A stretch of 26,221 nucleotides of DNA from a virus: the IMG/VR virus record IMGVR_UViG_3300006916_000322, positions 1 to 26,221 of that record. One strand, given 5' to 3'. Below the pieces are notes generated by a model. That model was not told the origin of the DNA. It did no database searches and worked only from the letters and a program-made list of their open reading frames with translations. The translations under genes and the position numbers were made by a program. Shown here piece by piece: positions 8,953-26,221 of the stretch (positions within the stretch are counted from its first letter, which is position 1; each line of letters starts with the position of its first letter).

Positions 8953-9294
8953 ATGAGTTTATATGATTATTCCTGTAACTATTGTGGATTCTTATGGGAG
9001 AACGTCAGTCAATCTATTCACGACGCACCAAAGAAGCAATGTCCAAGATGTAAGAAAATGTGTCTCACAAGGTTAATTAGTCTAGGACTTCCCCCAATAG
9101 TAATAGGAGAAGCTACCACTTTAGGACAATTAGCAGATCGAAACACTAAGAAGATTGGTAAATACAAAACTTCAGAAGAAAAGGCTAAACATGAAGAAAT
9201 CATAGGTAAGGGTACAAAAGAAAGAATAGACTTAAATAAGAAGATTTCCAAAATGACGCCAGAACAAAAATTAAGGTACATTGAGAATGGATGA
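8953..9294 (+). CDS. FmdB-type zinc-ribbon protein
   Basis: 113 aa. The N-terminus LYDYSCNYCGFLWE is the typical opening of FmdB-family zinc ribbons, with Cys8/Cys11 and Cys30/Cys33 (CPRC) as four zinc ligands. The rest is a charged, probably helical region ending in KMTPEQKLRYIENG. FmdB-type ribbons in phages are small regulatory or adaptor proteins of unknown partner. It abuts the membrane-protein gene and overlaps the next gene by a few bases, so it belongs to the same polycistronic message. Confidence 0.8.
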   Translation: MSLYDYSCNYCGFLWENVSQSIHDAPKKQCPRCKKMCLTRLISLGLPPIVIGEATTLGQLADRNTKKIGKYKTSEEKAKHEEIIGKGTKERIDLNKKISKMTPEQKLRYIENG

Positions 9295-9604
9295 TTTTTT
9301 AAAGAACTCTATTACGTACAATGAAACTTATTTCAATAATGAAGGTAAAGAATGTGTAGATAATGACAAGTGTTATGCTAAGATGCTAGTCAAAACAATT
9401 GATGGAAGAGAAAGTATCACATATTCAATTATGTGTAAGATGAATCTTTTAGTAGATCCTTGGGGTGACGACTGCTCACAAAGAAGGGTGATAGAGAATA
9501 CCTTCAAAAAGGTAAGTGAAGATTGTTTTCGTCTTTATATCAGATACTTAAAGACTCGTGAACAACGATTTCTAACTATAGCAAAAAGGAAACAAAATGG
9601 CTGA
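9287..9604 (+). CDS. Hypothetical phage protein
   Basis: 105 aa from the ATG at 9287. A TTG two codons upstream (9281) is an alternative and would add two residues; I prefer the ATG. The protein is mixed alpha/beta in appearance, with four to five cysteines and a basic C-terminal helix (RLYIRYLKTREQRFLTIAKR). No family is recognised. It overlaps the zinc-ribbon gene by 8 nt and the next gene by 8 nt, which supports expression in this block. Confidence 0.55.
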   Translation: MDDFLKNSITYNETYFNNEGKECVDNDKCYAKMLVKTIDGRESITYSIMCKMNLLVDPWGDDCSQRRVIENTFKKVSEDCFRLYIRYLKTREQRFLTIAKRKQNG

Positions 9605-9938
9605 AGAAAAATCAAAAAGATATCGTATGACTAAACTTCAGAAATATTTTATTGATAATCATTTAGAATCTGATCCTAAATCTCTAGCTATTGAATTAGG
9701 TATTCCGGCAGATGTAATTGATCGTTACATGAAAAAATCGATTCGGGAAGGGAAATTAGTAAAAAAACCAGAAAAAGAAACCCCCGAGACTCCAACAGAT
9801 GACAAGTTGATGTCTAAGAACAAGAGATATGGGGCTGTGGCGATGACTGAAGCTGCCGCATCTAAGGCTGATAGTTCTAGAGGTGCTGGTCTAAAGAGTA
9901 AATATTACAATGACGCAATCACAACCATCAGAAAGTAA
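9597..9938 (+). CDS. Helix-turn-helix-like hypothetical protein
   Basis: 113 aa. The N-terminal 60 residues look like a small DNA-binding helical domain: LQKYFIDNHLESDPKSLAIE, then LGIPADVIDRYMKK, the 'helix-turn-recognition helix' pattern of HTH proteins. A Pro/Glu-rich linker (about 64-77) leads to a C-terminal segment containing RYGAVAMTEAAASKADSS, which looks like a peptide motif rather than a folded domain. It may bridge DNA or the replisome to another protein. It lies just upstream of the UvsX gene cluster and overlaps the following ORF by 29 nt. The role is unknown. Confidence 0.6.
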   Translation: MAEEKSKRYRMTKLQKYFIDNHLESDPKSLAIELGIPADVIDRYMKKSIREGKLVKKPEKETPETPTDDKLMSKNKRYGAVAMTEAAASKADSSRGAGLKSKYYNDAITTIRK

Positions 9939-10335
9939 GCCCTACAAATCTTTTTATGGTGAAATTTATGTCACAGAATCAGCACACTTAGCAGAGCTAA
10001 TATTTAAGAGACGCTCTGAACTTAACAATGAAGGCACATTGCCTAATTTTTTTTGGCGTATTCCAAAGTATAAAAAATCTTTTGGTCTACAAACTATGTA
10101 CGCCTCTAGATTGTTAAAGACTTATGATATTTCTGCTATAATTAAAGGGCTTAATAACAAGGCTGTTAAAAATGTCCTGTCTTTTTCCAATAAAAGGCTG
10201 ATACCATTTATAGATGAAGCACAAAGTCTAGTAAAAGACAAAGTCTTTGAAGATAAGACCCAGCAAGATAAGAGTAAATTAGAACCAAAAAAACCTTTTG
10301 GTAAGAAAAATCTTTGGAGTATACTGAATGAGTAA
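9910..10335 (+). CDS. Hypothetical protein upstream of uvsX
   Basis: 141 aa. The ATG lies inside the preceding gene (29-nt overlap) and the stop overlaps the UvsX gene start by 8 nt. The protein has an N-terminal segment (FYGEIYVTESAHLAELIFKR), a central helical part with many basic residues (ASRLLKTYDISAIIKGLNNK) and a lysine-rich tail (about 108-135). I do not recognise a family. Coupling to the recombinase suggests a recombination or DNA-binding accessory role, by position only. Confidence 0.55.
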   Translation: MTQSQPSESKPYKSFYGEIYVTESAHLAELIFKRRSELNNEGTLPNFFWRIPKYKKSFGLQTMYASRLLKTYDISAIIKGLNNKAVKNVLSFSNKRLIPFIDEAQSLVKDKVFEDKTQQDKSKLEPKKPFGKKNLWSILNE

Positions 10336-12403
10336 AGATTCTGATACAGCGGTAAAGAAAAGTCTTAAAAACTTTGAAAGAGACTTCATTAAAACAGGAC
10401 GGGAAGTTTTTGAGGAAAAATGCAGACTGAAAAGTCTGTCTATCTCTCCCTCATTGGATTTTGCATTGAATGGAGGTCTTCTAGAAGGTACTTGGGTTCA
10501 AATTGTTGGAAAAGCAAAAACCGGCAAGGCACAGCCTTTGGGGTCTATAGTTTATACACCGTCTGGTCCAGTTAAGATGAGGGATATAAAACAAGGAGAT
10601 AAGGTATGTACCCCAGATGGGAAAAGTGCCAAAATTTTAAAAATTTATCCACAAGGGGTTAAAGAAGTTTATAAAGTTACTTTTAATGATAATACTTCCG
10701 CCTTCTGTTGTAAGGACCATTTATGGAAAGTTGCTAAAAATAATGGTAAAAATGAATACGTTGTTTTATCTCTAGAGGAAATACTTAGAAAGGGTTTGAA
10801 ATATCACGATAGAAATAAGTGGAAAATTCAATTAACTGAACCTGTTAAGTTTAATAGGCGACAATTAGGGGTAAAACCTTACATCTTAGGATGTTTGATA
10901 GGCGATGGTGGACTAACACATGGAACACCTATGATTTCGTCAGCAGATGAAGAAATTTTAGATGAATTTAGAAGCTATTGTGATTCTATAGGAGCAAAGC
11001 TTATACATAGGTCTAATTATGATTATGCCATATCTTATGGTGCAGATCATAAAAAGAAAGAAAACCAACTAACTAAGGAATTAAGAAATCTAAAACTGAT
11101 GGGATGTAACTCTCATCAAAAGTTTATACCTGAAGACTATAAATATTCGGACTATTTGGATCGTTTAGATTTAGCCAGGGGTTTAATGGATACTGATGGT
11201 TTTAATGATAAAGGTAAGACTGGAGAATATACTACAGTATCTAAGCAATTATCTAAAGATGTAATGGAGCTTTTGCAGTCATTAGGTTACAAAGTAAAAA
11301 TCAAGATGAGAGAGACTAAATGTGATGGTAAAAGCTTTCTTTCTTATAGACTGCACATTGCCGGAAATGATATTTCTAATATTTTTTCTTTAACACGAAA
11401 GAAATTTGATAAAAAGAGGATTAAGCCCAAATTATTTCGTTCTATTAAAAGTGTGGAACAGGTTGCCAGTGAAGAGTGTCAATGTATCGAATTAGATAGT
11501 AAGGATCATCTATATCTAACCGACAATTTTATTGTCACTCATAACACCTCAACAATACTTCAAATTGCTGCCAATGCTCAAGCCGAAGGTAGAAATGTAG
11601 TATATCTAGATGCAGAGGGTAGAATAAAGAAGTATAACCTTTGCGGAGTAAAAGGTCTTGATCTGGATAAGATTCAGTTAATTCAATCAGATGGTAATAC
11701 AATATTAACTGCGGAAATGTTTTTAAATGCACTAGAGGAAAAGATAAAAGCTCCAGAAAATGAGGGTGCCTTATTTATCATAGATTCTCTTTCAAGTCTT
11801 ATTCCAGCTAAAGAATTAGAGGGATATGTTAGCGGGGATTTCCGACCAGGACTTCCAAAGATATTATCTAATTTTTGTAAGAGGATGGGACAAGTTGTAC
11901 CAAAAACGAAAGCTATAATTATAGGTATTCATCATTTGATCTCAACACAATCTTCAATGCCAGGGGCTAAACAATGGACTGCTGATGGCGGTGTTAAAAT
12001 AGGTTATCAATACGACACTATGATGCAAGTTTCTCACAGTAAAGACTGGATTGATGATAACGGGAATCGTATCGGTCAAGAGATTAACTGGAAGATTTTG
12101 ACTTCCTCACAAGGAACTGATAAAACTAACGCTATTAGTTATTTTAGATTTAATCACGGTCTGGATAACGTTGAAGAGATTGTTGCTCTTGGAGATGATT
12201 TTGGAATCTTCAACAAAAAAGGTGCATGGTATTATATGAACTTTTTGGAGAACTATAAGGAAGAAATAGGTGAACAGATGTTGTTAGATCTGCAAGAGAA
12301 AAAATATGGTTTTCAAGGTAAGGCTAAACTATGCAGCTTTTTAAACGATAATCCCTCAGTCGTTAAAGTTATTGAAAAAGAAATGAAGGAATTTTTAGTT
12401 TGA
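10328..12403 (+). CDS. uvsX: UvsX/RecA-like recombinase precursor with class 3-type intein
   Basis: 691-aa precursor. Residues 1-67 and 407-691 join to a 352-aa RecA/UvsX-type ATPase after removal of a 339-aa intein. The N-extein holds LSISPSLDFALNGGLLEGTW and the beginning of Walker A (GKAKTGK, 61-67). The C-extein resumes with Thr to complete GKT, then shows NVVYLDAEGR, a Walker B-like ALFIIDSLSSLIPA, and GGVKIGYQYDTMMQVSHS. The enzyme forms filaments on single-stranded DNA and drives strand exchange in recombination-dependent replication. It would be inactive until splicing, because the intein splits the ATP-binding loop. The start overlaps the previous gene by 8 nt; the stop overlaps the following TTG-started nuclease gene by 4 nt. 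Confidence 0.92.
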   Translation: MSKDSDTAVKKSLKNFERDFIKTGREVFEEKCRLKSLSISPSLDFALNGGLLEGTWVQIVGKAKTGKAQPLGSIVYTPSGPVKMRDIKQGDKVCTPDGKSAKILKIYPQGVKEVYKVTFNDNTSAFCCKDHLWKVAKNNGKNEYVVLSLEEILRKGLKYHDRNKWKIQLTEPVKFNRRQLGVKPYILGCLIGDGGLTHGTPMISSADEEILDEFRSYCDSIGAKLIHRSNYDYAISYGADHKKKENQLTKELRNLKLMGCNSHQKFIPEDYKYSDYLDRLDLARGLMDTDGFNDKGKTGEYTTVSKQLSKDVMELLQSLGYKVKIKMRETKCDGKSFLSYRLHIAGNDISNIFSLTRKKFDKKRIKPKLFRSIKSVEQVASEECQCIELDSKDHLYLTDNFIVTHNTSTILQIAANAQAEGRNVVYLDAEGRIKKYNLCGVKGLDLDKIQLIQSDGNTILTAEMFLNALEEKIKAPENEGALFIIDSLSSLIPAKELEGYVSGDFRPGLPKILSNFCKRMGQVVPKTKAIIIGIHHLISTQSSMPGAKQWTADGGVKIGYQYDTMMQVSHSKDWIDDNGNRIGQEINWKILTSSQGTDKTNAISYFRFNHGLDNVEEIVALGDDFGIFNKKGAWYYMNFLENYKEEIGEQMLLDLQEKKYGFQGKAKLCSFLNDNPSVVKVIEKEMKEFLV
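10529..11545 (+). other. Intein in UvsX Walker A motif, class 3-like, with LAGLIDADG endonuclease
   Basis: 339 residues (precursor residues 68-406). The first residue is Ala, not Cys/Ser/Thr (GKAKTGK | AQPLGS). The last residues are VTHN and the +1 residue is Thr. Block B reads KDHLW, giving His64 and Trp66 of the intein. Block F reads QCIELDSKDHLYLTDNFIV, with Cys319 at the F:4 position. Trp (B:12), Cys (F:4) and Thr (+1) are the defining triad of class 3 inteins, which start splicing from the block F cysteine. Two LAGLIDADG motifs are visible, LGCLIGDGG (120-128) and LARGLMDTDG (215-224), so a homing endonuclease is embedded and looks intact. Boundaries follow from the RecA alignment at the P-loop. 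Confidence 0.9.
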
Positions 12404-16505: not shown

Positions 16506-17357
16506 ATGACAACAATTGTAGCGTTGGCAGGAGCTAAGGTTTCGGGAAAGTCTACTACGGTAAATTATCTACACGGTTACGAAATGAAACGTCATGGGTT
16601 TATTAAACACTTCGATATTTCTCCAGAGGGGAAGTTGATAGTTAATGCTATTTATAGAGACGAAGACAATAGACCTTTCGAATCTGCTGGTATTTTTGAT
16701 TTAGACCAAAAAAATCAAGAGTTTATAGAATATGCATCTAACTCATTTTGGCCGTTTGTTAGGGGCTTTAGTTTTGCAGAACCATTAAAAGAGTTATGTG
16801 TAAATCTATTTGGATTAGAACCAGAAAAAGTATACGGTACTGATGAACAGAAGAACTCACTAACAAAACTTAAATGGGTAGATATGCCAGGTGTTATCAT
16901 TTATGATAGCGACGATATGTGTGACGAAGTATATTCTGTACTAGAGGAAGAAGGAATTGCTGAAAACTTTTATTTCAAATATTTACCAAGTGATGAAGAA
17001 CAGTTCATGACTGGTAGAGAATTCATGCAATATCTTGGTACAGACATATTAAGAAAAATATATAGTAAAATCTGGACGGATTATTGTTTAAATAATATCA
17101 AGAATACTTCTCCAGATCTAGCCTTAATATCTGACTGCCGTTTTGAGAATGAGATTAATGCTATCCAATCAAATGGTGGAAAGGTTATCTATCTAACAAG
17201 AAATGGAAAGCCTGGAAGTCACTCAAGCGAACAGGCTGGTTCTTACATAGAACTTTATGATGCAATAATCGATAATTCCAATATGACAATTACTGAACAG
17301 AATGAAGCTGTTAAAGAGAAATTGTGCGAATGGGGAATTTTACCTAGAAGTCTTTAA
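16506..17357 (+). CDS. Deoxynucleoside monophosphate kinase, T4 gp1-like
   Basis: 283 aa. The P-loop GAKVSGKST (9-17) opens the protein. FAEPLKELCVNLFGLEPEKV, the segment TGREFMQYLGTDILRK, and SDCRFENEINAIQSNGGKVI are characteristic of the phage dNMP kinase family. It phosphorylates dNMPs (in T4: dTMP, dGMP and hydroxymethyl-dCMP) to diphosphates. With dCMP deaminase, ribonucleotide reductase and dUTPase in the same window, it completes most of a dNTP supply route. A 45-60 residue insert after the P-loop region (about 29-75) is somewhat longer than I expect for the family. Confidence 0.85.
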   Translation: MTTIVALAGAKVSGKSTTVNYLHGYEMKRHGFIKHFDISPEGKLIVNAIYRDEDNRPFESAGIFDLDQKNQEFIEYASNSFWPFVRGFSFAEPLKELCVNLFGLEPEKVYGTDEQKNSLTKLKWVDMPGVIIYDSDDMCDEVYSVLEEEGIAENFYFKYLPSDEEQFMTGREFMQYLGTDILRKIYSKIWTDYCLNNIKNTSPDLALISDCRFENEINAIQSNGGKVIYLTRNGKPGSHSSEQAGSYIELYDAIIDNSNMTITEQNEAVKEKLCEWGILPRSL

Positions 17358-17368
17358 GAAAGCTAAAT

Positions 17369-18421
17369 ATGCTAGTCTGCTATCACCGTAGTTCCTCAAT
17401 CGGAACACTTAGTTTCTGTGAACAAAAATATTTCTTAACTTATAATTTAGGAATGAAGGATAAGCAGAATCTTAAAGCTACTATGGGAACAATAGTACAT
17501 AAGTGTATGGAGACGTTGGGAAATATTGTAATAGCCAAACGAGAAGGAAAAAGGAAGGTTAAAGACGAAATTTTTAATCATACTTTTAAGCAGCTAGAAG
17601 ATCTAGAATTTATCAGTAAAATGTGTTATGATTACTATTCTAAGCATGTTCCTGAACTGTCTGAAAAATTCACACCAAGGGTGTACCAGCAGTGCCACGA
17701 TTGGTTTTTGAAGGCTTTGGCCTACAAGAATGGCGAAATGGACCCGAGAAACCAGGATATCTTTGCGGTAGAGCAGTTTTTCGATATTGAAATCAAGAAA
17801 CCTTGGGCGAAATATCGATATGATGTTGACGGAGAGATTATAGAAGGAAATCTTTCGATTAAGGGAACTGTTGACGTTATAGTAAAACATGACGAAAATT
17901 ACTTTCAAATCCTCGATTTTAAAACTGGAAAACGAATAGATTGGGCTACTGGTGAAATAAAGACGCAAGAAAAGCTGGAAAAAGATGTTCAGCTTCTTTT
18001 ATATTATTATGCTCTTAAGAACACATTTCCTGATTATGAATTTTATGTTTCGATTTATTACATAAATGACTCAAAGATTGACGGAGTTGATGTGCCTGGT
18101 GGATTGTTTGATATCTGTTTTGATGAGTCAGACTATGAAAAAGCCGAAAATATACTTAGACAAAAGTTCGAATACATAAAGTCAGTTAGACAGCCTAGAC
18201 TATTGTCTGATGATAATACTCATTGGAAATGTCAATATCTGTGCAAATTTTCTGAAGAATGGGATGATTCTGGGAAGTCCACTTGCCAATTCATGCGAGA
18301 CGAGGTAAAATCCAAGGGGCTATTAGATGTCGTGGCTGAATATGGAGATATTTCAAAAATATCAAAATATGGCTCAGGCGGGGGGGTATTGTCAGAAGAA
18401 GATAAAAAAGGAGATGTTTAG
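17369..18421 (+). CDS. RecB/Cas4-like PD-(D/E)XK nuclease with a probable Fe-S cluster
   Basis: 350 aa. The nuclease core is complete: GTIVHKCMET (His44), KGTVDVIV (Asp169), ILDFKTGKR (Asp183, Lys185) and DVQLLLYYYAL (Gln208). Four cysteines bracket it: Cys17 (LSFCEQKYFL) near the N-terminus, and Cys288, Cys292 and Cys306 near the C-terminus (KCQYLC, then STCQF). This split 1+3 pattern is the iron-sulfur staple of AddB-, Cas4- and related exonucleases, although the spacing here differs from the usual one. It probably resects or degrades DNA during recombination-dependent replication. A GG-rich segment follows in the tail (YGSGGGVLSEEDKK). The stop overlaps the next GTG by 1 nt. Confidence 0.85.
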   Translation: MLVCYHRSSSIGTLSFCEQKYFLTYNLGMKDKQNLKATMGTIVHKCMETLGNIVIAKREGKRKVKDEIFNHTFKQLEDLEFISKMCYDYYSKHVPELSEKFTPRVYQQCHDWFLKALAYKNGEMDPRNQDIFAVEQFFDIEIKKPWAKYRYDVDGEIIEGNLSIKGTVDVIVKHDENYFQILDFKTGKRIDWATGEIKTQEKLEKDVQLLLYYYALKNTFPDYEFYVSIYYINDSKIDGVDVPGGLFDICFDESDYEKAENILRQKFEYIKSVRQPRLLSDDNTHWKCQYLCKFSEEWDDSGKSTCQFMRDEVKSKGLLDVVAEYGDISKISKYGSGGGVLSEEDKKGDV

Positions 18422-18582
18422 TGGATGTAGATAGAATAATATTAAACATTGAAATTAATTTATATAAGTCTTTAGTAAAACAATATGGTTTTGCTTTAGC
18501 TGTTTATTCTGACAATGCTTTTGACTGGGGGATAATAAATGAGACAATTGAAAGATCAGAATACAAAATGGTTTCCAACTAG
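18421..18582 (+). CDS. Small hypothetical protein between nuclease and polymerase
   Basis: 53 aa from GTG at 18421 to TAG at 18580-18582. A GGAG sequence near 18410-18413 lies about 7 nt upstream of the GTG and supports the start. The start overlaps the nuclease stop by 1 nt, and the 3' end overlaps the polymerase gene by 44 nt. The protein reads RIILNIEINLYKSLVKQYGF in its first half, probably one amphipathic helix. No family is recognised. Confidence 0.5.
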   Translation: MDVDRIILNIEINLYKSLVKQYGFALAVYSDNAFDWGIINETIERSEYKMVSN

Positions 18583-19984
18583 AGTAACTTCACATTACTC
18601 ACTATTACAGTCAACATTAACACCTAAAGTTTTAGTATCTACTGCTAAATCTTTTGGGTATAATTCTGTAGCACTTACAGATTACGCATCTGTTTCAGGT
18701 GCTGTTCAATTTATAAAGGCTTGTAAAAAGGAAGAGATCAAAGGGATTATCGGATGCGAGATCCCCGTAGAAAATTATGGAGGAACTATAATTGTTCTTT
18801 GCAAGAATAAAGAAGCATGGGTTAAGCTATTAAAAATTGTTTCTATATGCAATAAGCATGAGGGATTGATATTCCCGTCAGAATCTCTGTCTATTATAGA
18901 CGGGGATTTTTTTGTTATTGACGGATATATTGGAAGCCGATTATTTTATCATATTGTTGAAGACCCAGCATGTATTCATAAGGCTGAGACTGAAGAAGAA
19001 GCAGTCTCTTGTCTAGATAATACAAACCAGGATTTAGTTATTCAGAAGATTAATGACTACATTAATTTATTTGGGGAAAACTATTTCTTAGAGCTTAATA
19101 GAATCAATGGAAAAGAGTTCCCATCTTCTAACGCAGTGTCTGATTATCTATCTCAGATTGCTACAGACATGAATTTTTCTAACTTGGTTGCTGGTTGCCC
19201 AATTAATTACGCCAAGCCTGAAGACGCGGTAGACCATCGTCTTTTACTATCATCTAAGATGAAGGTGACCAGTAGTAATGCGGAGAAGGGGCTACTTAAA
19301 GAAGATTTTTACAAATTTACAAAATTCTTCAAGAGTAACCTTTATTGTTTTCCAGACCAAGAGAATATAAAAAAACTCTATGAACCTAATCTGATTGAAA
19401 ATGTGGGCAAGATTGATGAACAATGTGAGTCCTATGATATTCTTTCTGCCCCACTATTACCAGTGTTTGATTGTCCCGGTGGTTTAAGCCAGATCGAATA
19501 CCTTAAACAGCTATGCCGTGAGGGTTGGAAAAACAAATTAATACCACAAGGTGTTGTAAAAACAGAAGAGAAGAGTATTGAGTATAGAGATAGAGTATTA
19601 AGCGAACTTAAAATCATTGAAGAAGCTAATCTTGCTGGCTACTTTCTTATCGTAGCAGACTATGTAAATAAATTCAGGGATAATGGACGATTAATCGGTC
19701 CTGGAAGAGGGTGTTTCTTACCAGATACAAGAATCAAGATGGATGATGGAATCTATACCCCCATTGCTTCAATTGAAATTGGAGACAAGGTTATAGATGC
19801 TTATGGAAAGCCTCAAGAGGTATATGACAAACTAGAATATGATGTAGATGAAGACATTATTGAGTTAGAATTTGAAAATGGAAAAATTGTCAGATGTACT
19901 CAAGATCATAAATTTTTAACGAATAACAGAGGTTGGGTAGAAGCTAAAGATCTAAATAATGAAGACGATGTGGTCGAGGTATAA
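18539..19984 (+). CDS. dnaE: DNA polymerase III alpha, fragment A (N-terminal) fused to split-intein N-half
   Basis: 481 aa. Residues 1-391 are the DnaE N-terminus: a PHP domain (about 15-260), then the start of the palm (LGPVL-type region, VLSELKIIEEANLAGYFLIV and GRLIGPGRG). Residues 392-481 are an intein N-half, starting CFLPDTRIK right after GPGRG. The PHP metal site is degraded: only HYSLL (His19) and TDYAS (Asp48-Tyr49) remain where active PHP domains have HxH and TDH. PHP-linked nuclease activity is therefore unlikely; a separate DEDDh exonuclease is encoded at 21991. The protein is expected to be ligated to fragment B by trans-splicing. The start follows a GGGGG run at 18527-18531. 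Confidence 0.92.
   Translation: MRQLKDQNTKWFPTRVTSHYSLLQSTLTPKVLVSTAKSFGYNSVALTDYASVSGAVQFIKACKKEEIKGIIGCEIPVENYGGTIIVLCKNKEAWVKLLKIVSICNKHEGLIFPSESLSIIDGDFFVIDGYIGSRLFYHIVEDPACIHKAETEEEAVSCLDNTNQDLVIQKINDYINLFGENYFLELNRINGKEFPSSNAVSDYLSQIATDMNFSNLVAGCPINYAKPEDAVDHRLLLSSKMKVTSSNAEKGLLKEDFYKFTKFFKSNLYCFPDQENIKKLYEPNLIENVGKIDEQCESYDILSAPLLPVFDCPGGLSQIEYLKQLCREGWKNKLIPQGVVKTEEKSIEYRDRVLSELKIIEEANLAGYFLIVADYVNKFRDNGRLIGPGRGCFLPDTRIKMDDGIYTPIASIEIGDKVIDAYGKPQEVYDKLEYDVDEDIIELEFENGKIVRCTQDHKFLTNNRGWVEAKDLNNEDDVVEV
19712..19981 (+). other. Split intein N-half (IntN) of DnaE site GPGRG|SAAGSL
   Basis: 90 residues. Block A is CFLPDTRIKMDDG with the nucleophile Cys1. Block B is VRCTQDHKFLTNNRG with the TxxH signature. 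The sequence then ends after KDLNNEDDVVEV with a stop codon, so blocks F and G are missing. They are found on the separate gene at 21047 (C-half). The extein junction is exact against DnaE: GPGRG before, SAAGSL after. Length and composition fit natural split-intein N-halves (about 90-105 aa), not a truncation artefact. Confidence 0.92.
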
Positions 19985-19996
19985 AAAGAACCTCGA
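19974..19996 (+). other. Hairpin enclosing the stop codon of fragment A
   Basis: TCGAGGT (19974-19980) pairs perfectly with ACCTCGA (19990-19996), leaving a 9-nt loop that contains the TAA stop at 19982-19984. Two further G-T pairs could extend the stem. No long T-run follows, so it is a weak terminator at best. It may stabilise the mRNA end or affect termination of translation. Confidence 0.45.
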
Positions 19997-20023
19997 TTGG
20001 GACTTTTGGGTGTATAGGATGAT

Positions 20024-20239
20024 ATGATGAGAACTAAGAGACTATATCAAATAATTTACAGGCATGAACAGTATATTCAACCTATGTCTAAATTAATTAG
20101 TAGTTGTTTTATTACACTCTACAGAGAAGATGTAGTTAGTCTAAATTTGCCTAGATTAATTAGGACTCATTCATGGCTCAGTCTTGTCTCTTGTGAAGAC
20201 GAGTATTTTTTCATAGAAGAAGTCAAATATGAAGAGTGA
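20024..20239 (+). CDS. Small hypothetical ORF inside the split DnaE locus
   Basis: 71 aa from ATG at 20024 (or 20027), with AGGA at 20016-20019 as a ribosome-binding site. The protein has basic N-terminal residues (RTKRLYQIIYRHEQYIQPM), a hydrophobic centre and an acidic end (EDEYFFIEEVKYEE). No motif is recognised. It lies entirely between the two intein halves, next to the endonuclease gene, and might be a co-mobile small protein or the remnant of another gene. The stop lies 2 nt before the endonuclease ATG. Confidence 0.45.
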   Translation: MMRTKRLYQIIYRHEQYIQPMSKLISSCFITLYREDVVSLNLPRLIRTHSWLSLVSCEDEYFFIEEVKYEE

Positions 20240-20241
20240 TT

Positions 20242-21063
20242 ATGAAAACCATTACATTGAAAGAGTTAAAAGACTTAAATTATAGTCCAAAAGGTGTCTC
20301 TAATTACAAATTAATAGAAGGAGAATGTTCCAAGTGTAATCAAAATTTTGAGTATTCAAATGTAAAAAAATTTTTACGAAATAGAAAATCAAATCAAAAC
20401 AAAGACGAATGGGATACTTGTGCTAAGTGCTATCTGAAACTTAAGACTATTGAAGATTCAAAATGGATGGAAGCTAACAGACAGGCTCAATTAATAGCTC
20501 AAAATAGACCAGAACAAAAGAAAAGAAACGCAGAAGGCGTTTCTAAAAGTTGGGACCAAGAGAGAAAATCAAAAGCTTCAGATTTTTTAAAAAAAAGATG
20601 GGAAAACGAAGAGGGGTTTGCTGAGAAGGCTCTTAAAAATTTCGAATGGACTCAAACAAATGATGAGAGGCATAATGAGATTCTAAAAAGGTCTCTAGGA
20701 GCTGGTGGGCTTAAAGGAGAGTATCAGGGGATCAGATACGATAGTGCTGTTGAATTATCTTTTTTATTGTGGTGTGAGAATAAAAATATTCCCATAAAAA
20801 GATATGATTTAGCTCCTATCTCTTATTTGGCAGAAGATGGTAAAACAAGATTGTATTTTCCAGATTTCATTATTTACCACAATCAGATTATAGAGATCAA
20901 AGGTTTAGGGGTGTATTATCAAAAAAATTATCAGAGAAATTTGTTAAAAATAGACGCTGCACAAAAATTCTGTCAAAATTATAAAGTAATATTTAGTGAC
21001 GATGAGTGCTTGAAGAAATTCTATAAAAAAGCTAGAAAGTTACATCATGAAACTAAAAAATAA
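20242..21063 (+). CDS. Free-standing Vsr-like/PD-(D/E)XK homing endonuclease candidate
   Basis: 273 aa from ATG at 20242 (a GTG two codons earlier is possible). Residues 29-63 carry a CSKC/CAKC zinc finger. Residues 85-130 are a Lys/Glu-rich helical region with NUMOD3-like appearance (NAEGVSKSWDQERKSKASDF). Residues 163-225 hold the nuclease core: YDSAVELSFLLWC (Glu171), YFPDFIIYH (Asp208), and QIIEIKG (Glu218, Lys220). Environmental phage 'fractured genes' carry free-standing endonucleases of a Vsr-related type in exactly this place, between intein halves, which supports the homing role. The 3' end overlaps the C-half gene by 17 nt. Confidence 0.8.
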   Translation: MKTITLKELKDLNYSPKGVSNYKLIEGECSKCNQNFEYSNVKKFLRNRKSNQNKDEWDTCAKCYLKLKTIEDSKWMEANRQAQLIAQNRPEQKKRNAEGVSKSWDQERKSKASDFLKKRWENEEGFAEKALKNFEWTQTNDERHNEILKRSLGAGGLKGEYQGIRYDSAVELSFLLWCENKNIPIKRYDLAPISYLAEDGKTRLYFPDFIIYHNQIIEIKGLGVYYQKNYQRNLLKIDAAQKFCQNYKVIFSDDECLKKFYKKARKLHHETKK

Positions 21064-21151
21064 GAAACTGACTAAACATACTGGTAAAGTATATGATCTT
21101 TCTGTGACAAATTCTCACACGTATAATGTTGAAAGCTTAGGTGTTCATAAT
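21047..21151 (+). other. Split intein C-half (IntC) of DnaE site GPGRG|SAAGSL
   Basis: 35 residues. Block F is KVYDLSVTNSHTYNVESLG and block G is VHN followed by Ser+1. The terminal His-Asn pair and Ser+1 are intact, so splicing should be active. 35 aa is the standard C-half length of split inteins. It is separated from its N-half by 1.06 kb carrying two ORFs. Confidence 0.92.
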
Positions 21152-21835
21152 TCAGCCGCAGGCAGTTTAGTCTCTTATTTAGTTGGTATTACTCTGATTG
21201 ACCCTATTCCTTACGGCCTTCTATTTTCAAGATTTTATAACTCAGCACGTATTGGCTCATTACCCGATATTGATGTTGACTTCCCGCCAGATTTGCGTGA
21301 AGAGGTCATTAATTATCTTAGAGAAAAATATGGTCACGATAAAGTTTGTCAGATGGTGACTTTTGGACGGTTGCAAGGTCGTGGAGCACTAAAAGAAGTA
21401 TTAAGGATTAATGAGTCATGTTCGTTCGAAGAGATGAACATGATTACGAACAAGATACCACTAGAGTCACTTCTTTCTGATAAGCTGGAAGAAATGGAAA
21501 AACCTTCAGTAATTAAATGGTGCTTAGAAAATGACCCAGACGCTCTAAGAGAGTATTGCGTAGAAGTTGATGGTGAGCTTTCTGGTGATTATGCAAAACA
21601 ATTTGAACAAGCATTAAGAATTGAGGGGATATTTAAATCTCAAGGCAAACATGCTGCTGGAGTGGTTGTTTCATCTGTTACATTAGAACAGTTCTGCCCA
21701 ATGGTTAAACCAACCAAGGGGGAAGATCCTGTAGCTGGATTTGAAATGAGCGATTTAGAAGCGGCTGGCGGTGTTAAGCTCGACATATTGGGTGTAAATT
21801 TATTACGTAAAATAGAAATGACATGTCATGTGTGA
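21047..21835 (+). CDS. dnaE: DNA polymerase III alpha, fragment B (catalytic core), with split-intein C-half
   Basis: 262 aa. Residues 1-35 are the intein C-half; residues 36-262 continue DnaE from SAAGSLVSYLVGITLIDPIP. The catalytic motif LPDIDVDF gives Asp76 and Asp78. The third catalytic Asp is Asp246 in GGVKLDILG. FGRLQGRGALKEVL and GKHAAGVVVSS are further DnaE signatures. All three catalytic aspartates lie on this one 262-aa gene product. The protein ends at LLRKIEMTCHV in a linker of the polymerase, with no intein at that end. It therefore joins fragment A covalently by trans-splicing but must contact fragment C non-covalently. Confidence 0.92.
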   Translation: MKLKNKKLTKHTGKVYDLSVTNSHTYNVESLGVHNSAAGSLVSYLVGITLIDPIPYGLLFSRFYNSARIGSLPDIDVDFPPDLREEVINYLREKYGHDKVCQMVTFGRLQGRGALKEVLRINESCSFEEMNMITNKIPLESLLSDKLEEMEKPSVIKWCLENDPDALREYCVEVDGELSGDYAKQFEQALRIEGIFKSQGKHAAGVVVSSVTLEQFCPMVKPTKGEDPVAGFEMSDLEAAGGVKLDILGVNLLRKIEMTCHV

Positions 21836-22001
21836 TGTAGAAAAAGTAATGGATGATATTTTTTTTGATATATGGTACGATTCGGCTGATCAATTAGATA
21901 ATGAAGAATTAAGGAAAATAGAAAATATTATTTACGATAATATTAACAGCCTAAATATAATTATGCAAAACTTTTATTTTAGAGAATTTTATGATATATA
22001 A
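21828..22001 (+). CDS. Small acidic hypothetical protein in the DnaE B/C break
   Basis: 57 aa from ATG at 21828 to TAA at 21999-22001. The gene overlaps the fragment B stop by 8 nt and the exonuclease start by 11 nt, filling an otherwise empty gap. The protein is acidic at its start (MCDVEKVMDDIFFDIWYDSA) and rich in Ile, Asn and Asp, probably helical. No family is recognised. Confidence 0.5.
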   Translation: MCDVEKVMDDIFFDIWYDSADQLDNEELRKIENIIYDNINSLNIIMQNFYFREFYDI

Positions 22002-22671
22002 TACATATTGTGTGTACGATTTAGAGACTACATCACCCTCACCAAAAACTACACAAATAGTGCAAATTGCTGCCAAGATGGTCAATAGCAGAACTTTAAG
22101 TATAATTCCGGGGTCAGAATTTCAGTCATTAGTTCAACCTAGTTTTGATCCAGAATTTTGTAAGCTTCATAGATTAGATTTACTTCAGCCGGGGGCTATA
22201 GCAGTACATGGTAAAACTGAAGCAATGCTTAGAACGGCACCCACACTAAAAGCCGTTTGGTCAAATTTCTGTGAGTATGTGAAGTCTTACAATTACAAAG
22301 GGACTAATTGGACAGCACCAATTCGAGTTGGATATAATAATAAAGGGTTCGATGATATCATTGTTGAAAGGGTTATGTGTGACTCACCTTGGGAATATGG
22401 ACCATCTTCTAAAGATAAAAGCAGACAGGATTTATTTAACAAATACTCATCAATTGACGTATATGATATTATGTTACTGATGTTTGAAAATGATAAATCT
22501 GTTAATAAGTTAGGGGCCGATGCTTTAGTACGTGGACATATGGGTTATTCGAAAAAGAATGCTCACGATGCTATGGCTGACGTAGATATGACGGCGGAAT
22601 TATTCTGTACGGTACAGCGTTCTATTCGGGCATTTGCAAAGACTAAGAATTTTAAAGGAATGTTTAACTAG
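21991..22671 (+). CDS. DnaQ-like DEDDh 3'-5' exonuclease
   Basis: 226 aa. The DEDDh motifs are complete: YDLETTS (Asp10, Glu12), GYNNKGFDD (Asp121) and AHDAMADVDM (His192, Asp197). These are the metal ligands and general base of RNase T/DnaQ/ExoI-type exonucleases. The gene lies directly inside the break between DnaE fragments B and C, and the PHP domain of the polymerase is degraded, so it is a strong candidate for the polymerase proofreading subunit. An alternative is a general single-strand exonuclease (ExoI-like, as hinted by the HRLDLLQPGAIAVHG region). Confidence 0.85.
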   Translation: MIYNTYCVYDLETTSPSPKTTQIVQIAAKMVNSRTLSIIPGSEFQSLVQPSFDPEFCKLHRLDLLQPGAIAVHGKTEAMLRTAPTLKAVWSNFCEYVKSYNYKGTNWTAPIRVGYNNKGFDDIIVERVMCDSPWEYGPSSKDKSRQDLFNKYSSIDVYDIMLLMFENDKSVNKLGADALVRGHMGYSKKNAHDAMADVDMTAELFCTVQRSIRAFAKTKNFKGMFN

Positions 22672-22690
22672 TTATAAAAAGAAAGTAATA

Positions 22691-23398
22691 ATGGAAATTC
22701 CCCAACTTTTTCGTGAGTCACGTTATGGTATGCCAAGTGCAGACCAAATTTTACCTAATAGGAACTATTTAATTGGATACTCTTATTTATTCCGACAGCC
22801 TCGCTGGGCGATGCAGGTAATCGATGGATCGGCATCTGATGTATCTGTAGACCGTCAGGACTGCTTCAGACCTGATTTAAGAATCCCCGAAACCTTCAGA
22901 GCTACATTATCTGACTATGCGGGTTCTGGTTACGATAGGGGGCATCTTGTTCCATCTGCCGATAGCAACGAGACACGTCTAGAAAACAGCGAAACATTCT
23001 TACTCTCTAACATGAGTCCTCAAGCCCCAGACATGAATCGTCGATCTTGGAGAATTCTAGAGTCAGCAGTTAGAAAGATTGCACAAAAACCTGAAGTAGT
23101 AGAGGTCTATGCTATTAGCGGACCTGTTTTTGATTTATCAAAACCATTTACTAAAATAGGTGATGATGTTATTGTCCCGCATGAGTTTTTCAAGACTGTT
23201 TTAGTTGAAGATAATAAAGGTAAGATTGATTTTTGTTCATTCCTTTTACCTAATGAAAAAACAAATACTACTTATAAAGACCACGTTGTTTCTGTTAAAT
23301 ATTTAGAGTTTAGAACCGGACTGCTTTTATGGGATCGTCTAAAAGGGAGTTCAATAGAAAAGGCAAAAACAAAGAAAACTATCCGTAAAGGAATATAA
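22691..23398 (+). CDS. DNA/RNA non-specific endonuclease (NUC1/Serratia-type beta-beta-alpha-metal)
   Basis: 235 aa from ATG at 22691. An upstream in-frame ATG at 22634 would add 19 residues overlapping the exonuclease gene and is less likely. The family signature YDRGHLVPSAD is present (Asp82-Arg-Gly-His85, with His85 as general base). The following SNMSPQAPDMNR has the metal-binding Asn116. No signal peptide is visible, so the enzyme is probably cytoplasmic: host DNA breakdown, recombination, or mobility are all possible. It is the last gene in the insert separating DnaE fragments B and C, 16 nt before fragment C. Confidence 0.88.
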   Translation: MEIPQLFRESRYGMPSADQILPNRNYLIGYSYLFRQPRWAMQVIDGSASDVSVDRQDCFRPDLRIPETFRATLSDYAGSGYDRGHLVPSADSNETRLENSETFLLSNMSPQAPDMNRRSWRILESAVRKIAQKPEVVEVYAISGPVFDLSKPFTKIGDDVIVPHEFFKTVLVEDNKGKIDFCSFLLPNEKTNTTYKDHVVSVKYLEFRTGLLLWDRLKGSSIEKAKTKKTIRKGI

Positions 23399-23414
23399 AA
23401 GAAAGATTCAATAA

Positions 23415-25010
23415 GTGAATAATCTAGATATCACTAAAATACCTTTAGACGATCAAAAAACTTGGGACTTAATTTGCTCTGGTAACACTAAAGGTGTGTT
23501 TCAGCTAGAAACTAACTTAGGTAAGCATTGGTGTAAAGAGTGTAAGCCAAGAAGCATAGAAGAGTTATCAGATGTTATTAGTGCTATTCGGCCTGGATGT
23601 ATTTCCGGAGATTCGTTAATAACAATTAAAAATAGAACTTATGATACAAGATCTAATACATACGCTAAGAAGACAATCAGGGAATTATGCAATAATGCAC
23701 ATAAAGTAACCAGTCTGTTATCTCTTGATACTTCGTCTAAGAAAATTATAGACAACGGCATTGAAGATATTTTTTATAGTGGTGAGAAAGAATGTTTTGA
23801 GGTTTTAATAACAAATTATTCAAAGGGGAAGAAAAGACTACAGGTTAAGAAAAAATGGCATGATCTGGAGTGTACGGCAGAGCATAAAATGTTGACATCT
23901 GATTTAAATTGGGTTTCTTTAAAGGATTTGAAACCTGGTCAAAGAATAGCATGTCTGAAAAAAGCTAGTAACAAGACTAGAATGTCTAATACTATTAGTA
24001 ATAGACATGTAAAAGATGGGCCTAGAATGCCTAATGTAGATGGTACTAGATATTTTGCTGAAATATGTTATAAAAACTATATAGAAGAATGTGTTATATG
24101 TGATTGGGATGAAACAAGTTTAGATACACATCATATTGAAGGAAATAGACATACCAACAATAAACCAGAAAATTTAGCTTACTTATGCCCTAATTGTCAT
24201 AGAATGCATAATATGTCTTTAATAAGTACAGATGAAATACTGACAAAAAGAAAGGAAAAAGAACTGCCAAAATTTGAAGGTGTTGAATGGGTCACTTATT
24301 TAGGTAAGAAATCTGTTGGGGTAAAAGACACTTATGATATTACTATGAAGTCTCCTAATAATAATTTTATAGCTGGTAATTTTATTGTACACAATTCATT
24401 AAAGGCAAAACAAGATGGAAAGTCCATGACTCAGCACTATGCTGATAGAAAATCTAGTAAAGAAGAAATGGACAGTCTATACGGACCAATTGACCATATA
24501 GTCGCTAGTACTCAGTCAATTATCCTCTATCAAGAGCAGTCAATGAAGATTGCTCAGGTGATGGCGGGCTTCTCGGAACAACAATCAGATACTCTGAGAA
24601 AATCAATCGGTAAAAAAAATGCGTCCCTGATGGCAGAGGTAAAGGTTCAATTTTTAGAAGGATGTGAGCAGCAAGGACACTCAAAAGAGGACTCCGAGCG
24701 AATCTTTGAGATTATCGAAAAAAGTTCTAGATATAGTTTTAATAAATGTCTTGCCTTGGATACATTAGTTGAACTGGAAAACGGCGATATGATTACAATT
24801 GAAGATGTATCTATTGGAGATAAGGTAAAAACTCCGGATGGTTATGCCGTCGTAAAGAATAAATACAATAATGGCATCCAAGACGTGTTCCGAGTTAATA
24901 TTGGATGCAAAGAAATCAAGTGTACTATTACCCATAAATTTTTAAGTAAAGACGGGAAAATTCTCCCATTATGGTCCTTTCTATTTACCGGACAACCCAT
25001 ACATGAATGA
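23415..25010 (+). CDS. dnaE: DNA polymerase III alpha, fragment C, with HNH intein and a second IntN
   Basis: 531 aa from GTG at 23415, directly after an in-frame TAA. Residues 1-61 continue DnaE: LDITKIPLDDQKTWDLICSG, GVFQLET and SAIRPG. Residues 62-327 are a complete intein. Residues 328-444 are DnaE again (SLKAKQDGKSM, STQSIILYQEQSMKIAQVM, SRYSFNK). Residues 445-531 are a split-intein N-half and then a stop. After cis-splicing and trans-splicing, the fragment would supply fingers-region sequence. The SHA-containing remainder of DnaE is missing from the window. GTG follows a GAAAG-like ribosome-binding site at 23401-23405. Confidence 0.9.
   Translation: MNNLDITKIPLDDQKTWDLICSGNTKGVFQLETNLGKHWCKECKPRSIEELSDVISAIRPGCISGDSLITIKNRTYDTRSNTYAKKTIRELCNNAHKVTSLLSLDTSSKKIIDNGIEDIFYSGEKECFEVLITNYSKGKKRLQVKKKWHDLECTAEHKMLTSDLNWVSLKDLKPGQRIACLKKASNKTRMSNTISNRHVKDGPRMPNVDGTRYFAEICYKNYIEECVICDWDETSLDTHHIEGNRHTNNKPENLAYLCPNCHRMHNMSLISTDEILTKRKEKELPKFEGVEWVTYLGKKSVGVKDTYDITMKSPNNNFIAGNFIVHNSLKAKQDGKSMTQHYADRKSSKEEMDSLYGPIDHIVASTQSIILYQEQSMKIAQVMAGFSEQQSDTLRKSIGKKNASLMAEVKVQFLEGCEQQGHSKEDSERIFEIIEKSSRYSFNKCLALDTLVELENGDMITIEDVSIGDKVKTPDGYAVVKNKYNNGIQDVFRVNIGCKEIKCTITHKFLSKDGKILPLWSFLFTGQPIHE
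23598..24395 (+). other. Full-length intein in DnaE site RPG|SLKAKQ with HNH endonuclease
   Basis: 266 residues (62-327 of the precursor). Block A starts CISGDSLITI, block B is LECTAEHKML (TAEH), block F is DTYDITMKSPNNNFIAGN, and block G is VHN with Ser+1. The insert between B and F is an HNH nuclease with two CxxC pairs: ECVICDWDETSLDTHHIEG (Cys226, Cys229, His239/His240) and LCPNCHRMHN (Cys258, Cys261, His262). All splice-junction residues are intact, so it should cis-splice. The HNH type differs from the LAGLIDADG intein in UvsX and from the Vsr-like enzyme at 20242. Confidence 0.9.
24747..25007 (+). other. Second split intein N-half (IntN), DnaE site YSFNK|SHA-type
   Basis: 87 residues after YSFNK, beginning CLALDTLVELENGDMITIED. 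Block B is IKCTITHKFLSKDG (TITH). It ends with KILPLWSFLFTGQPIHE and a stop; blocks F and G are absent. The insertion point lies four residues beyond the site of cyanobacterial split DnaE inteins (Y|CFNKSH). No matching C-half occurs in the remaining 1.2 kb. I expect a downstream gene starting with a roughly 35-aa C-half followed by SHA/SHS-type DnaE sequence. Confidence 0.88.
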
Positions 25011-25173
25011 ATTTATAGAAGATCAATATTGGAAAGATTTTAATAATGGCAAGAATCTAGATAAGTACGGAATAAAAACGATAAAAGTTATCATGTTAGA
25101 TAGGTGGCAGTCACAAGACCCATCCTTTTTTGCATTCAAAAATAGAGAAGAATTATTAAGAGTTGGTAAATGA
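25003..25173 (+). CDS. Small hypothetical protein after DnaE fragment C
   Basis: 56 aa from ATG at 25003 to TGA at 25171-25173. It overlaps the fragment C stop by 8 nt and the next gene by 4 nt (ATGA), a typical coupling pattern here. The sequence has WKDFNNGKNLDKYGIKTIKV and a C-terminal helix. No intein C-half motif (block F, HN end) is present, so it is not the missing partner. No family is recognised. Confidence 0.5.
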   Translation: MNEFIEDQYWKDFNNGKNLDKYGIKTIKVIMLDRWQSQDPSFFAFKNREELLRVGK

Positions 25174-25592
25174 CTAATAATGCTTATTCAAAGATCAATA
25201 ATGTTGACCCTAGCCACATAATGGAATGGTTCTACTTCAGTGTCTGTGAGGCTGGTGGTGATGGTGCAGCGGTCATCTGTTGTGGAAACCCAAAAGAAAC
25301 CTCTGAATACTTCATTCAATGGTGGAAGAAGCGATATTTACCACAAATGAAGAAGAACGGATATAAAAAAGATGAATTCTGGCATCCCGTAGAAGAATAT
25401 ACTGGACAAAATGGAGAACTTATATTAAACTATCATGATGGCAACGAGAACTTTATGTTCTGTGATCAGGTTGTTGATCTTGGTCATGGTGATGTTAGTT
25501 TTATTGTTGAATCGGACTGTAAGACTCTTGATGGGAAATTTACATGCCGGAAAGTTATAAAGTTAGATATGTACGATAATTGGAATAAATAG
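25170..25592 (+). CDS. Hypothetical phage protein
   Basis: 140 aa. The sequence contains HIMEWFYFSVCEAGGDGAAV, then aromatic-rich and basic stretches (FIQWWKKRYLPQMKKNGYKK) and a C-terminal HGDVSFIVESDCKTLDGKFT. It looks like a small globular alpha/beta protein, with five cysteines and no recognised motif. ATGA overlap with the previous gene supports the start. Its function is unknown. Confidence 0.55.
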   Translation: MTNNAYSKINNVDPSHIMEWFYFSVCEAGGDGAAVICCGNPKETSEYFIQWWKKRYLPQMKKNGYKKDEFWHPVEEYTGQNGELILNYHDGNENFMFCDQVVDLGHGDVSFIVESDCKTLDGKFTCRKVIKLDMYDNWNK

Positions 25593-25703
25593 GGGGGAAA
25601 AATTAGAGCTAGAGTAACTAATAGCATCAACATGAGTAACTACAGACTATAAAAATTGAACTTGACATAAGCCGTACTAAACGTCTTTTTTTGGATTTAG
25701 ATT
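25593..25703 (+). other. Intergenic gap with a repeated 9-mer and a T-tract
   Basis: This is the largest gap besides 311-387. It contains GAGTAACTA twice (25612-25620 and 25634-25642), 22 nt apart, then TTGACA at 25662-25667 and a run of seven T at 25686-25692. No -10 box sits at 16-18 nt from the TTGACA, and no strong hairpin precedes the T-run. It may hold control sequences for the next gene. I see no gene, tRNA or clear terminator. Confidence 0.4.
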
Positions 25704-26221
25704 ATGAATATTTTTGTACTTTCTTATGACCCCGTAGAAGCAGCCCAGTCGCAAGTCAACCGTCATAATATAAAGATGATTTTGGAAAGTGCCCAGCTAC
25801 TTTGCACTGCTCACCATATGTGTCCAAAATACGAACTGCCTATCAAGTTCTATCGTAAAACACACCACAATCACCCGTGTGCCATATGGACTCGTGAGTC
25901 GTCTGATAATTATAAATGGCTCTGCAAGCACGCTATCGCTCTATGTGATGAATATACTTACCGTTACGATAAGACACACGCATCACGAGGAATTATTGAG
26001 TGGTGTTACGATCATATTCCTGACTTACCAGATATTGGTCCAACCTCTGTTAGACTTGCTATGCCGGATGAATACAAAAATGATGATCCGGTAGAATCTT
26101 ATAGAAATTATTATTACTATGATAAAGGTAAAAATATTCAATGCGAGTGGAAACGTAGAAATCCACCAGACTGGTGGAACAGAATGTTAGCACTTGACGA
26201 ACTTACAAAACAAGCACAAGA
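25704..26221 (+). CDS. Conserved phage protein of unknown function (partial, runs off the window)
   Basis: At least 172 aa, from ATG at 25704 to the window end without a stop. The reading is typical of a widespread phage family with the opening MNIFVLSYDPVEAAQSQVNR, the segments KMILESAQLLCTAHH, HPCAIWTRESSDNYKWLCKH and EYTYRYDKTH, and the end-segment AMPDEYKNDDPVESYRNYYY. The conserved His, Trp, Tyr and Arg residues suggest an enzyme or nucleotide-binding protein. I recall such proteins mostly as 'hypothetical', so I give no function. The initiator is preceded by a 111-nt gap. Confidence 0.75.
   Translation, partial: MNIFVLSYDPVEAAQSQVNRHNIKMILESAQLLCTAHHMCPKYELPIKFYRKTHHNHPCAIWTRESSDNYKWLCKHAIALCDEYTYRYDKTHASRGIIEWCYDHIPDLPDIGPTSVRLAMPDEYKNDDPVESYRNYYYYDKGKNIQCEWKRRNPPDWWNRMLALDELTKQAQ

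Follow-up and report, generated by a model that had tools for sequence, protein, structure and literature searches.

How a phage could copy its genome with a polymerase whose catalytic subunit is scattered over several genes is the question raised by IMG/VR virus record IMGVR_UViG_3300006916_000322, a 26-kb phage contig analyzed over its whole length of 26,221 bases and called the window here. DnaE, the alpha subunit of DNA polymerase III (Pol III), is spread over three of its open reading frames (ORFs), termed fragments A, B, and C. A preliminary description of this DNA proposed that A and B are linked by a split intein, that B and C meet without one, and that C ends in half of a second split intein whose partner lies elsewhere. 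Two trans-splicing events, one cis-splicing event, and one non-covalent junction would then be needed, a sequence-based scheme that the present analysis also favors. With a probability of roughly 80%, this locus specifies a replicative C-family polymerase belonging to the phage itself, a two-subunit alpha with an exonuclease, fractured further in this species by split inteins. It is somewhat less secure, though still reasonably likely, that a large uncultured lineage replicates with an obligate heterodimeric alpha that has a proofreading exonuclease encoded between its two genes, one of the species using four chains, two split inteins, and one cis intein. If so, genome replication in that species would depend on several post-translational joinings. 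Read gene by gene, each piece would seem to be a truncated polymerase.

Polymerase domains of the fragments

The conserved parts of DnaE follow one another across A, B, and C as the preliminary description had them, and ORFs, motifs, and Pfam matches agree on the order (Table 1). The DNA_pol3_alpha profile (PF07733) is tiled by the first two pieces, A covering profile positions 1-65 and B positions 66-260. All features of a C-family DnaE, namely PHP domain, palm with its aspartates, fingers, helix-hairpin-helix (HhH), and OB fold, were found through Pfam matches of the window pieces and of a related locus, L041, and through structural matching. The OB fold scored below the Pfam cut-off in L041, where structure supports it, and above the cut-off in another relative, L053. 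An alignment of the N-terminal part of the enzyme (alpha-N, corresponding to A and B) from 15 relatives shows no variation at the aspartate columns of PDIDxD and KxD. We take these columns to include the three catalytic aspartates of DnaE, all of which would thus lie on B, in agreement with the earlier assignment. Many columns are also invariant among 14 aligned sequences of the C-terminal part (alpha-C). The DnaE pieces contain no internal stop codons, and the ratio of non-synonymous to synonymous rates (dN/dS) between the window and the related locus L005 is 0.23 for A, 0.13 for B, and 0 for the exonuclease gene. By eye, the metal-binding motif of the PHP domain looks intact in L007 (position 8801, LHSHTHYSLLDG) and eroded in the window (18539-18700, VTSHYSLLQS) and in L041 (4258, LNVKTHFSLQRG).

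The same fractured layout occurs in three contigs. Ten related viral loci were found with B as query. One of them, L003, occupies one end of a contig of 142,148 bases and has 99.85% DNA identity to the window over 15.1 kb; it is arranged as in the window, and so is L004 (99.90% over 14.1 kb). Each of 15 long contigs, which span 78-154 kb and include the 142-kb one that nearly equals the window, has dnaE at a single place. The preliminary description had set its reading against the possible presence of another replicative polymerase; models of PolA (PF00476) and PolB (PF00136) matched none of these 15 contigs, which may be incomplete, and none held a second DnaE. The assembled enzyme is therefore the only candidate phage replicase recognized, though the phage may still rely on the polymerase of its host.

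The palm/fingers break in related phages

The junction between B and C was followed by applying profiles of A, B, the exonuclease, C, and the C-terminal fragment D (described below) to related loci. Relatives came from searches that returned the best 80 of 103, the best 80 of 573, and the best 80 of 586. Loci repeating a contig or stretch were left out (L001, L002, L013-L026, L073, L105, L106, L198, L199, L204, L206, L247, L249, and L264), and 160 records were kept. Both B and the first part of C are present in 144 of these, to which the B/C count is restricted; the counts are of records, not of independent lineages. B and C start in different ORFs in 143 of the 144. The preliminary description was correct that no intein separates B from C, although the break is not an oddity of this one phage. 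An exonuclease homologue lies between the halves in all 143 split records and is fused to neither side in any of them, and B ends with a stop codon soon after the palm in the 23 related loci viewed (23/23). After thinning at 68% identity, 20 clade rows remained, 19 of them split and the other being L053; the window's lineage is not among these rows. In the thinned tree these 20 rows group together as a clade supported at 100/100.

The control sets were largely unbroken at this joint. B and C share one ORF in 80/80 cellular DnaEs. In named phages, 1,280 of the 1,344 matching records cover at least 80% of a query spanning B and C in one place; an even sample of all matching rows was single-piece throughout (60/60), with 58 covering at least 80% and two partial. 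Ten named-phage regions fetched from the matches all carry B and C in one ORF, and the eight that are annotated each show one dnaE coding sequence (CDS). Among the matches listed, the closest named-phage match to B is 39.2% identical; the exonuclease matched only six Bacteroides phages, at 26-28% identity. A cellular origin of the locus was considered and rejected, DnaEs on cellular contigs being 27-40% identical (best 80 of 586 loci).

Predicted structures place the break between domains. The two halves of L041, each folded alone as an AlphaFold model, reached a mean pLDDT of 86.3 (alpha-N) and 88.9 (alpha-C). The alpha-N model aligned with residues 4-571 of Escherichia coli alpha (2hnh; Z 25.3, root-mean-square deviation 3.8, 484 residues aligned) and the alpha-C model with residues 581-910 of the same chain (Z 17.3, deviation 3.3, 322 aligned); alpha-C also matched Taq alpha (3e0d, residues 639-1121; Z 21.1, deviation 3.5, 429 aligned). 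Little thus appears to be missing at the junction, and with the palm and fingers limits that we assumed, the cut falls between these two domains. The intein-less junction is probably a functional subunit boundary of the whole clade.

The exonuclease between the halves is likely a proofreader, by analogy with epsilon. A single-sequence search for a solved relative of it returned none at E up to 0.01. The start of the alpha-C gene (dnaE-C) lies within the exonuclease gene in 104 of 143 records when the most upstream ATG is taken and in 98 of 143 with the nearest ATG (seven have no ATG), which suggests translational coupling. A frameshift fusion of exonuclease and alpha-C was also considered, since the frames overlap, and rejected, as 18-21 of the 143 records have more than 60 nucleotides between the two.

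Two further features concern the alpha-N gene (dnaE-N) and its surroundings. A family of small ORFs of about 70-90 amino acids adjoins dnaE (L007 10710-10952, L041 6638-6856, L053 9025-9267, L019 2773-3045) and separates dnaE-N from the exonuclease gene in 96 of 142 records, a count that includes the profile seeds L007, L031, L041, and L053 and omits L003 and L004. In L008 (8892-10570), dnaE-N is broken within B; the gap contains a LAGLIDADG ORF (9100-9780), and no Rfam intron was found.

Split intein 1 and its alleles

The proposed link between A and B is supported by the two intein halves themselves and by a relative without them. L003 and L004 share the break of the window. L005 has no intein at this site, and A and B form one ORF of 618 amino acids running through GPGRG/SAAGS (the slash marks the intein site), which is the product expected from splicing of A to B. 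A third state is found in L012, where the nuclease ORF between the halves has been lost save for its last 16 codons, but the N-half still ends at its stop codon and the C-half still has a start of its own; the intein is therefore still split without the nuclease ORF. Overall, A and B lie in one ORF in 156 of the 160 records.

The sequence features of split inteins and fractured genes are present: a first-position cysteine (Cys1) on the N-half, an asparagine before the nucleophile at the C-half, and relatives in which nothing interrupts the extein site. The junction residues are intact, with Cys1 and with Asn-Ser at the C-halves of both split inteins. Between the window and L012, the N-half (IntN1) differs by 12 synonymous and four non-synonymous codons, a dN/dS of 0.095 based on small numbers, which points in the direction of selection for function. 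The TnsA-like ORF between the halves carries mixed PHROG labels: E is 1.5e-8 for a family of unassigned function, 6.6e-7 for one labelled 'head closure', and 4e-4 for an endonuclease family. Because of its position between the halves and its absence from the empty-site allele L005, where no counterpart was found, it is a candidate homing endonuclease.

Related arrangements may occur beyond these contigs. The family phrog_13169 matches A and IntN1 up to its last positions (query window 18539-19981), and phrog_21652 matches the C-half (IntC1) and B from its first positions (query window 21047-21832), so that some phage or prophage behind these families may carry the same split. In the named-phage collection, no split A/B intein was found among the matches listed. 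Inteins at the GPGRG site occur there in Lactococcus phages 949 and P1048 and in Bacillus phage G, again among the matches listed, and a single annotated gene there covers the matches to both intein halves. Twelve named-phage records, all outside the matches listed, cover at least 80% of a query made of IntC1 and the start of B, and a query of IntC1 with 13 extein residues added no DnaE-labelled named phages among the matches listed. A 228-amino-acid ORF of L005 (10754-11440), in the gap between dnaE-N and the exonuclease gene, has the look of an HNH-type endonuclease and by eye resembles an ORF in the corresponding position of L031 (5869-6663).

Split intein 2, fragment D, and the cis intein

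The partner of the intein half that ends fragment C was located outside the window. The preliminary description had anticipated a gene beginning with an intein C-half followed by SHA-type DnaE sequence, and such a gene, fragment D, lies at the opposite end of the 142,148-base contig (Table 1). Its extein begins SHAVSYAY and supplies the C-terminal third of DnaE, with an HhH match above the cut-off and a DnaE PHROG matched up to position 1055 of 1190. With D as query, only the 142-kb contig was found. C and D stand at opposite ends of this contig, in which no end overlap was found, and a pattern taken from the contig's end and searched for to close the gap matched that contig alone. By eye, D is followed by ORFs resembling single-stranded DNA-binding protein and a sigma factor, as are found after dnaE-C in L041, which favors a joining of the contig ends. 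No homing-type nuclease was recognized among 10 ORFs scanned in the C-D spacer of the window species, the known spacer being incomplete and smaller ORFs falling outside the scan. The spacer also holds YopX-type proteins (L020 4798-5148, L019 1087-1455) and several small neighboring ORFs starting MSSDE.

The same site is broken in other phages of the clade. L030 and L031 are split at exactly the same C/D position with both halves on one contig, and a weakly DUF559/Vsr-like ORF lies between the halves; their C-halves, which continue into SHG or SHA, share 52% and 39% identity, respectively, with the C-half (IntC2) of the window species. These two are the exceptions among 135 records with the second part of C and D, of which 133 have both in one ORF; the window and L003, with no D on the stretch counted, do not enter as exceptions. 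An intein at the SFNK/SH site is also found in the named Rhodococcus phage Weasels2. Inteins at the RPG site of the cis intein occur in L027, L028, and L030, and those of L028 and L030 match that of the window by BLAST.

Proposed assembly and alternative explanations

In the proposed mechanism, alpha of this clade would be divided into two subunits where the palm meets the fingers. Alpha-N would carry the PHP domain, palm, and thumb with all catalytic aspartates and metal ligands, and alpha-C the fingers, HhH, and OB fold. Because the exonuclease gene stands between the alpha halves, all three products are probably synthesized side by side and would assemble as a polymerase-proofreader complex, in which alpha-N and alpha-C would meet non-covalently through the palm-fingers contact of the one-chain enzyme. 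In the window species, mobile elements would have broken both alpha genes again. A and B would be trans-spliced by split intein 1, inside the GPGRGS motif, to give alpha-N; C and D would be trans-spliced by split intein 2 to give alpha-C, from which the cis intein in C would be excised. Palm and fingers on separate chains suggest that a replicase can do without a covalent link at this joint. The clade would offer a natural two-part Pol III for work on structure, fidelity, and split enzymes, and the fractured species two natural split inteins in one protein.

Several points weigh against a working, spliced replicase of this kind. Splicing, non-covalent assembly, and use as the replicase are predictions from sequence. 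Another polymerase could be missed in contigs that may be incomplete. The match of IntN1 to the Pfam intein model stays below the cut-off, the C-halves gave no Pfam intein match, and between IntC1 and its L012 counterpart there is a single synonymous and a single non-synonymous codon difference, numbers too small to be informative. IntC2 has serine rather than histidine before its final asparagine, as do L030 and L031. The distance from C to D is 4.95 kb or more if the contig ends join and about 137 kb as assembled. Finally, L053 has A, B, and C in one ORF, so the B/C break is not absolute; its OB-fold part forms an ORF of its own, and the exonuclease lies in the gap before it. L053 therefore shows another kind of DnaE break, located around the same exonuclease. 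In one tree the single-chain label of L053 needs one change (61/80); in another L053 is nested (93/90), and a tree with all split rows together is not rejected (approximately unbiased test, p 0.117), so that its single chain may be either ancestral or re-joined.

Other explanations of the pieces fare worse. The pieces could be a decaying gene, phage DNA being copied by the host polymerase and the fragments being remnants, and the eroded look of the PHP motif in the window and L041 compared with L007, together with the many insertions held by one gene, would suit this view. It is nonetheless very improbable given the invariant aspartate motifs of 15 alpha-N and the many invariant columns of 14 alpha-C sequences, the low dN/dS of A, B, and the exonuclease, pieces free of internal stops, the same B/C split in 143 of 144 records, and the lack of any PolA, PolB, or second DnaE match. 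Breaks that reflect assembly errors, a possibility raised in the preliminary description, or frameshift errors are the least probable of all. The contigs are metagenomic and C and D lie at opposite ends of one of them; however, three contigs match at 99.85-99.90% identity across 14 kb or more, the breaks coincide with intein motifs, the B/C break recurs in 143 records, and L030 and L031 show the C/D split with both halves on one contig.

Two further explanations accept an intact enzyme and differ in how its parts come together; both rank slightly below decay. B and C might be joined at the RNA level, by an intron or a trans-spliced intron, or by recoding, leaving alpha as one chain. The interrupted B of L008 with its LAGLIDADG ORF looks intron-like, so introns may occur in dnaE. 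Against RNA joining, Rfam gave no match in window positions 17000-26221 at E up to 5 and none at the gathering score in seven related loci, the spacer is occupied by the exonuclease gene in 143/143 split records, B stops soon after the palm in 23/23 loci, and the start of C is often situated within the exonuclease gene, all of which make this explanation hard to credit. Equally doubtful is the idea that the intein halves have lost the ability to splice, so that all four polypeptides associate non-covalently and keep their intein stubs. A non-covalent B/C junction seems to function in this clade as it is, and IntC2 lacks the usual penultimate histidine, yet Cys1 and the Asn-Ser junction residues are intact and the 12 synonymous against four non-synonymous changes in IntN1 speak against such a loss. 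A 90-residue stub at GPGRG, a motif that presumably lies at the DnaE active site, would moreover be expected to obstruct that site.

Comparison with known systems

Fractured genes, reportedly described by Dassa et al. 2009 (a work that PMC6892783 and PMC10448857 cite), are said to have intein halves on two ORFs with a free endonuclease gene between them. The nuclease-like ORFs between the halves, at A/B in the window and at C/D in L030 and L031, resemble this arrangement. In contrast to such genes, two fractures fall in one protein here, L012 is still split without a nuclease ORF, and the 10 ORFs scanned in the incompletely known C-D spacer include no nuclease of homing type. Empty-site, nuclease-plus, and nuclease-minus alleles of one site make the homing cycle of a fractured gene directly testable.

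The split-intein site of cyanobacterial DnaE is Y/CFN. Cyanobacterial DnaE is encoded by two separate genes whose products are joined through a split intein (PMC7765530). One split intein is involved there, whereas the phage enzyme has two (GPGRG/S and SFNK/S) and a cis intein, on top of an intein-less split. In Pseudomonas phage MIJ3, PolB is split by a putative split intein (PMC6892783); this polymerase belongs to family B and has one break, unlike the C-family polymerase of the window.

Phage polymerases in two proteins are known. Group 2.2 jumbo phages have a minimal two-protein Pol III alpha, encoded by distantly located genes, beside PolB (PMC7824862). The likeness lies in a phage Pol III alpha made as two proteins, with no intein mentioned in that account. 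In contrast to that minimal core as described there, the clade polymerase keeps the PHP domain, fingers, HhH, and OB fold, and its genes are adjacent around the exonuclease gene; PF00136, the family of the accompanying jumbo-phage PolB, is found in 0/15 long contigs, possibly incomplete ones. The T4-like gp43A/gp43B and NrdA genes in pieces indicate that separate chains can keep function, and in phage 25 the 43A and 43B proteins co-purify and polymerase activity is present (PMC2988022). T4-like gp43 is a family B enzyme and no arrangement around an exonuclease gene is described there, unlike the window polymerase, which is C-family by Pfam and structure. No description of a palm/fingers DnaE split around an exonuclease gene was found in the open-licence literature searched, as far as its accessible text extends.

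Named phages also carry DnaE inteins or DnaE in several CDSs. Phage G and Weasels2 resemble the window in the latter respect. Their inteins and that of phage 949 have both halves in one ORF, unlike those of the window, and the cuts differ: Weasels2 is cut at PHP/palm and phage G inside the palm, and B and C share one ORF in 949 and Weasels2 (in phage G, C was looked for only within a 12-kb stretch). As the same sites carry inteins in phages 949, G, and Weasels2, each intein site taken alone is not new. In Bacillus phage G (L277 3940-7912), gp329 holds a GPGRG cis intein and only the start of B, and is followed by an annotated homing endonuclease and by gp331 with more of the palm. Rhodococcus phage Weasels2 (L278 2250-6003) has two overlapping DnaE CDSs, the PHP/palm cut, and a cis intein at SFNK/SHS.

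Organization of the locus and neighboring genes

Table 1. Features of the dnaE locus and of two related loci. Positions refer to the window unless a locus is named.
Feature	Position	Strand	Evidence and remarks
Fragment A ORF	18539-19984	+	PHP and start of DNA_pol3_alpha, GPGRG, then 90-residue intein N-half
Fragment A extein, 391 residues	18539-19711	+	Pfam PHP E 5e-20, DNA_pol3_alpha E 9e-12; ends GPGRG, palm start
Split intein 1 N-half, 90 residues and stop	19712-19984	+	Intein_splicing E 8e-7, below curated cut-off
Small ORF, 71 residues, between intein 1 halves	20024-20239	+	No Pfam family; no L005 or L012 match
TnsA-like nuclease ORF, between intein 1 halves	20236-21063	+	TnsA-like_N E 2e-6, just above cut-off
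Fragment B ORF	21047-21835	+	35-residue intein C-half, then SAAGS..., PDIDVD, KLDILG
Split intein 1 C-half, 35 residues	21047-21151	+	Direct reading of sequence; ends VHN (...LGVHN)
Fragment B extein, palm/thumb, and stop	21152-21835	+	DNA_pol3_alpha E 2e-48
Aspartate motifs on B	PDIDVD 21263-21280; Asp of KLDILG at 21782	+	Sequence
DnaQ/ExoI-like exonuclease gene	21991-22671	+	RNase_T E 3e-13; PHROG 'DNA polymerase exonuclease subunit' E 9e-24
NucA-type DNA/RNA non-specific endonuclease gene, exonuclease-to-C gap	22634-23398	+	Endonuclease_NS E 1e-41; likely start ATG 22691
Fragment C ORF	23415-25010	+	IPLDD, FQLE, RPG, cis intein, fingers, YSFNK, intein N-half
Fragment C extein part 1, fingers start	23415-23597	+	Ends IRPG; homologous to dnaE-C start in relatives
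Cis intein, 266 residues, HNH motif, RPG site	23598-24395	+	Intein_splicing E 1.5e-11, above cut-off; HNH E 0.004-0.006, below cut-off
Fragment C extein part 2, fingers	24396-24746	+	DNA_pol3_finger E 4e-40; ends YSFNK
Split intein 2 N-half, 87 residues and stop	24747-25010	+	36% identical over 85 residues to same-site L031 N-half
Fragment D, 371 residues	L019 1661-2776 (opposite end of 142,148-base contig, outside window)		36-residue intein C-half (...GIPTSN) and 335 residues of DnaE C-terminus
L053 dnaE locus	L053 6450-12003		dnaE one ORF through palm and fingers; OB-fold ORF 11494-12003; exonuclease 10128-10826

The NucA-type endonuclease gene of the window is also present in L003, L004, and L005. 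Downstream of fragment C, a protein encoded at 25704-26221 weakly matches pyrimidine dimer DNA glycosylase (E 0.003, below the cut-off). Upstream, a RecA-like protein (10328-12403) carries a cis intein with a LAGLIDADG domain at its Walker A motif (GKA...HNT).

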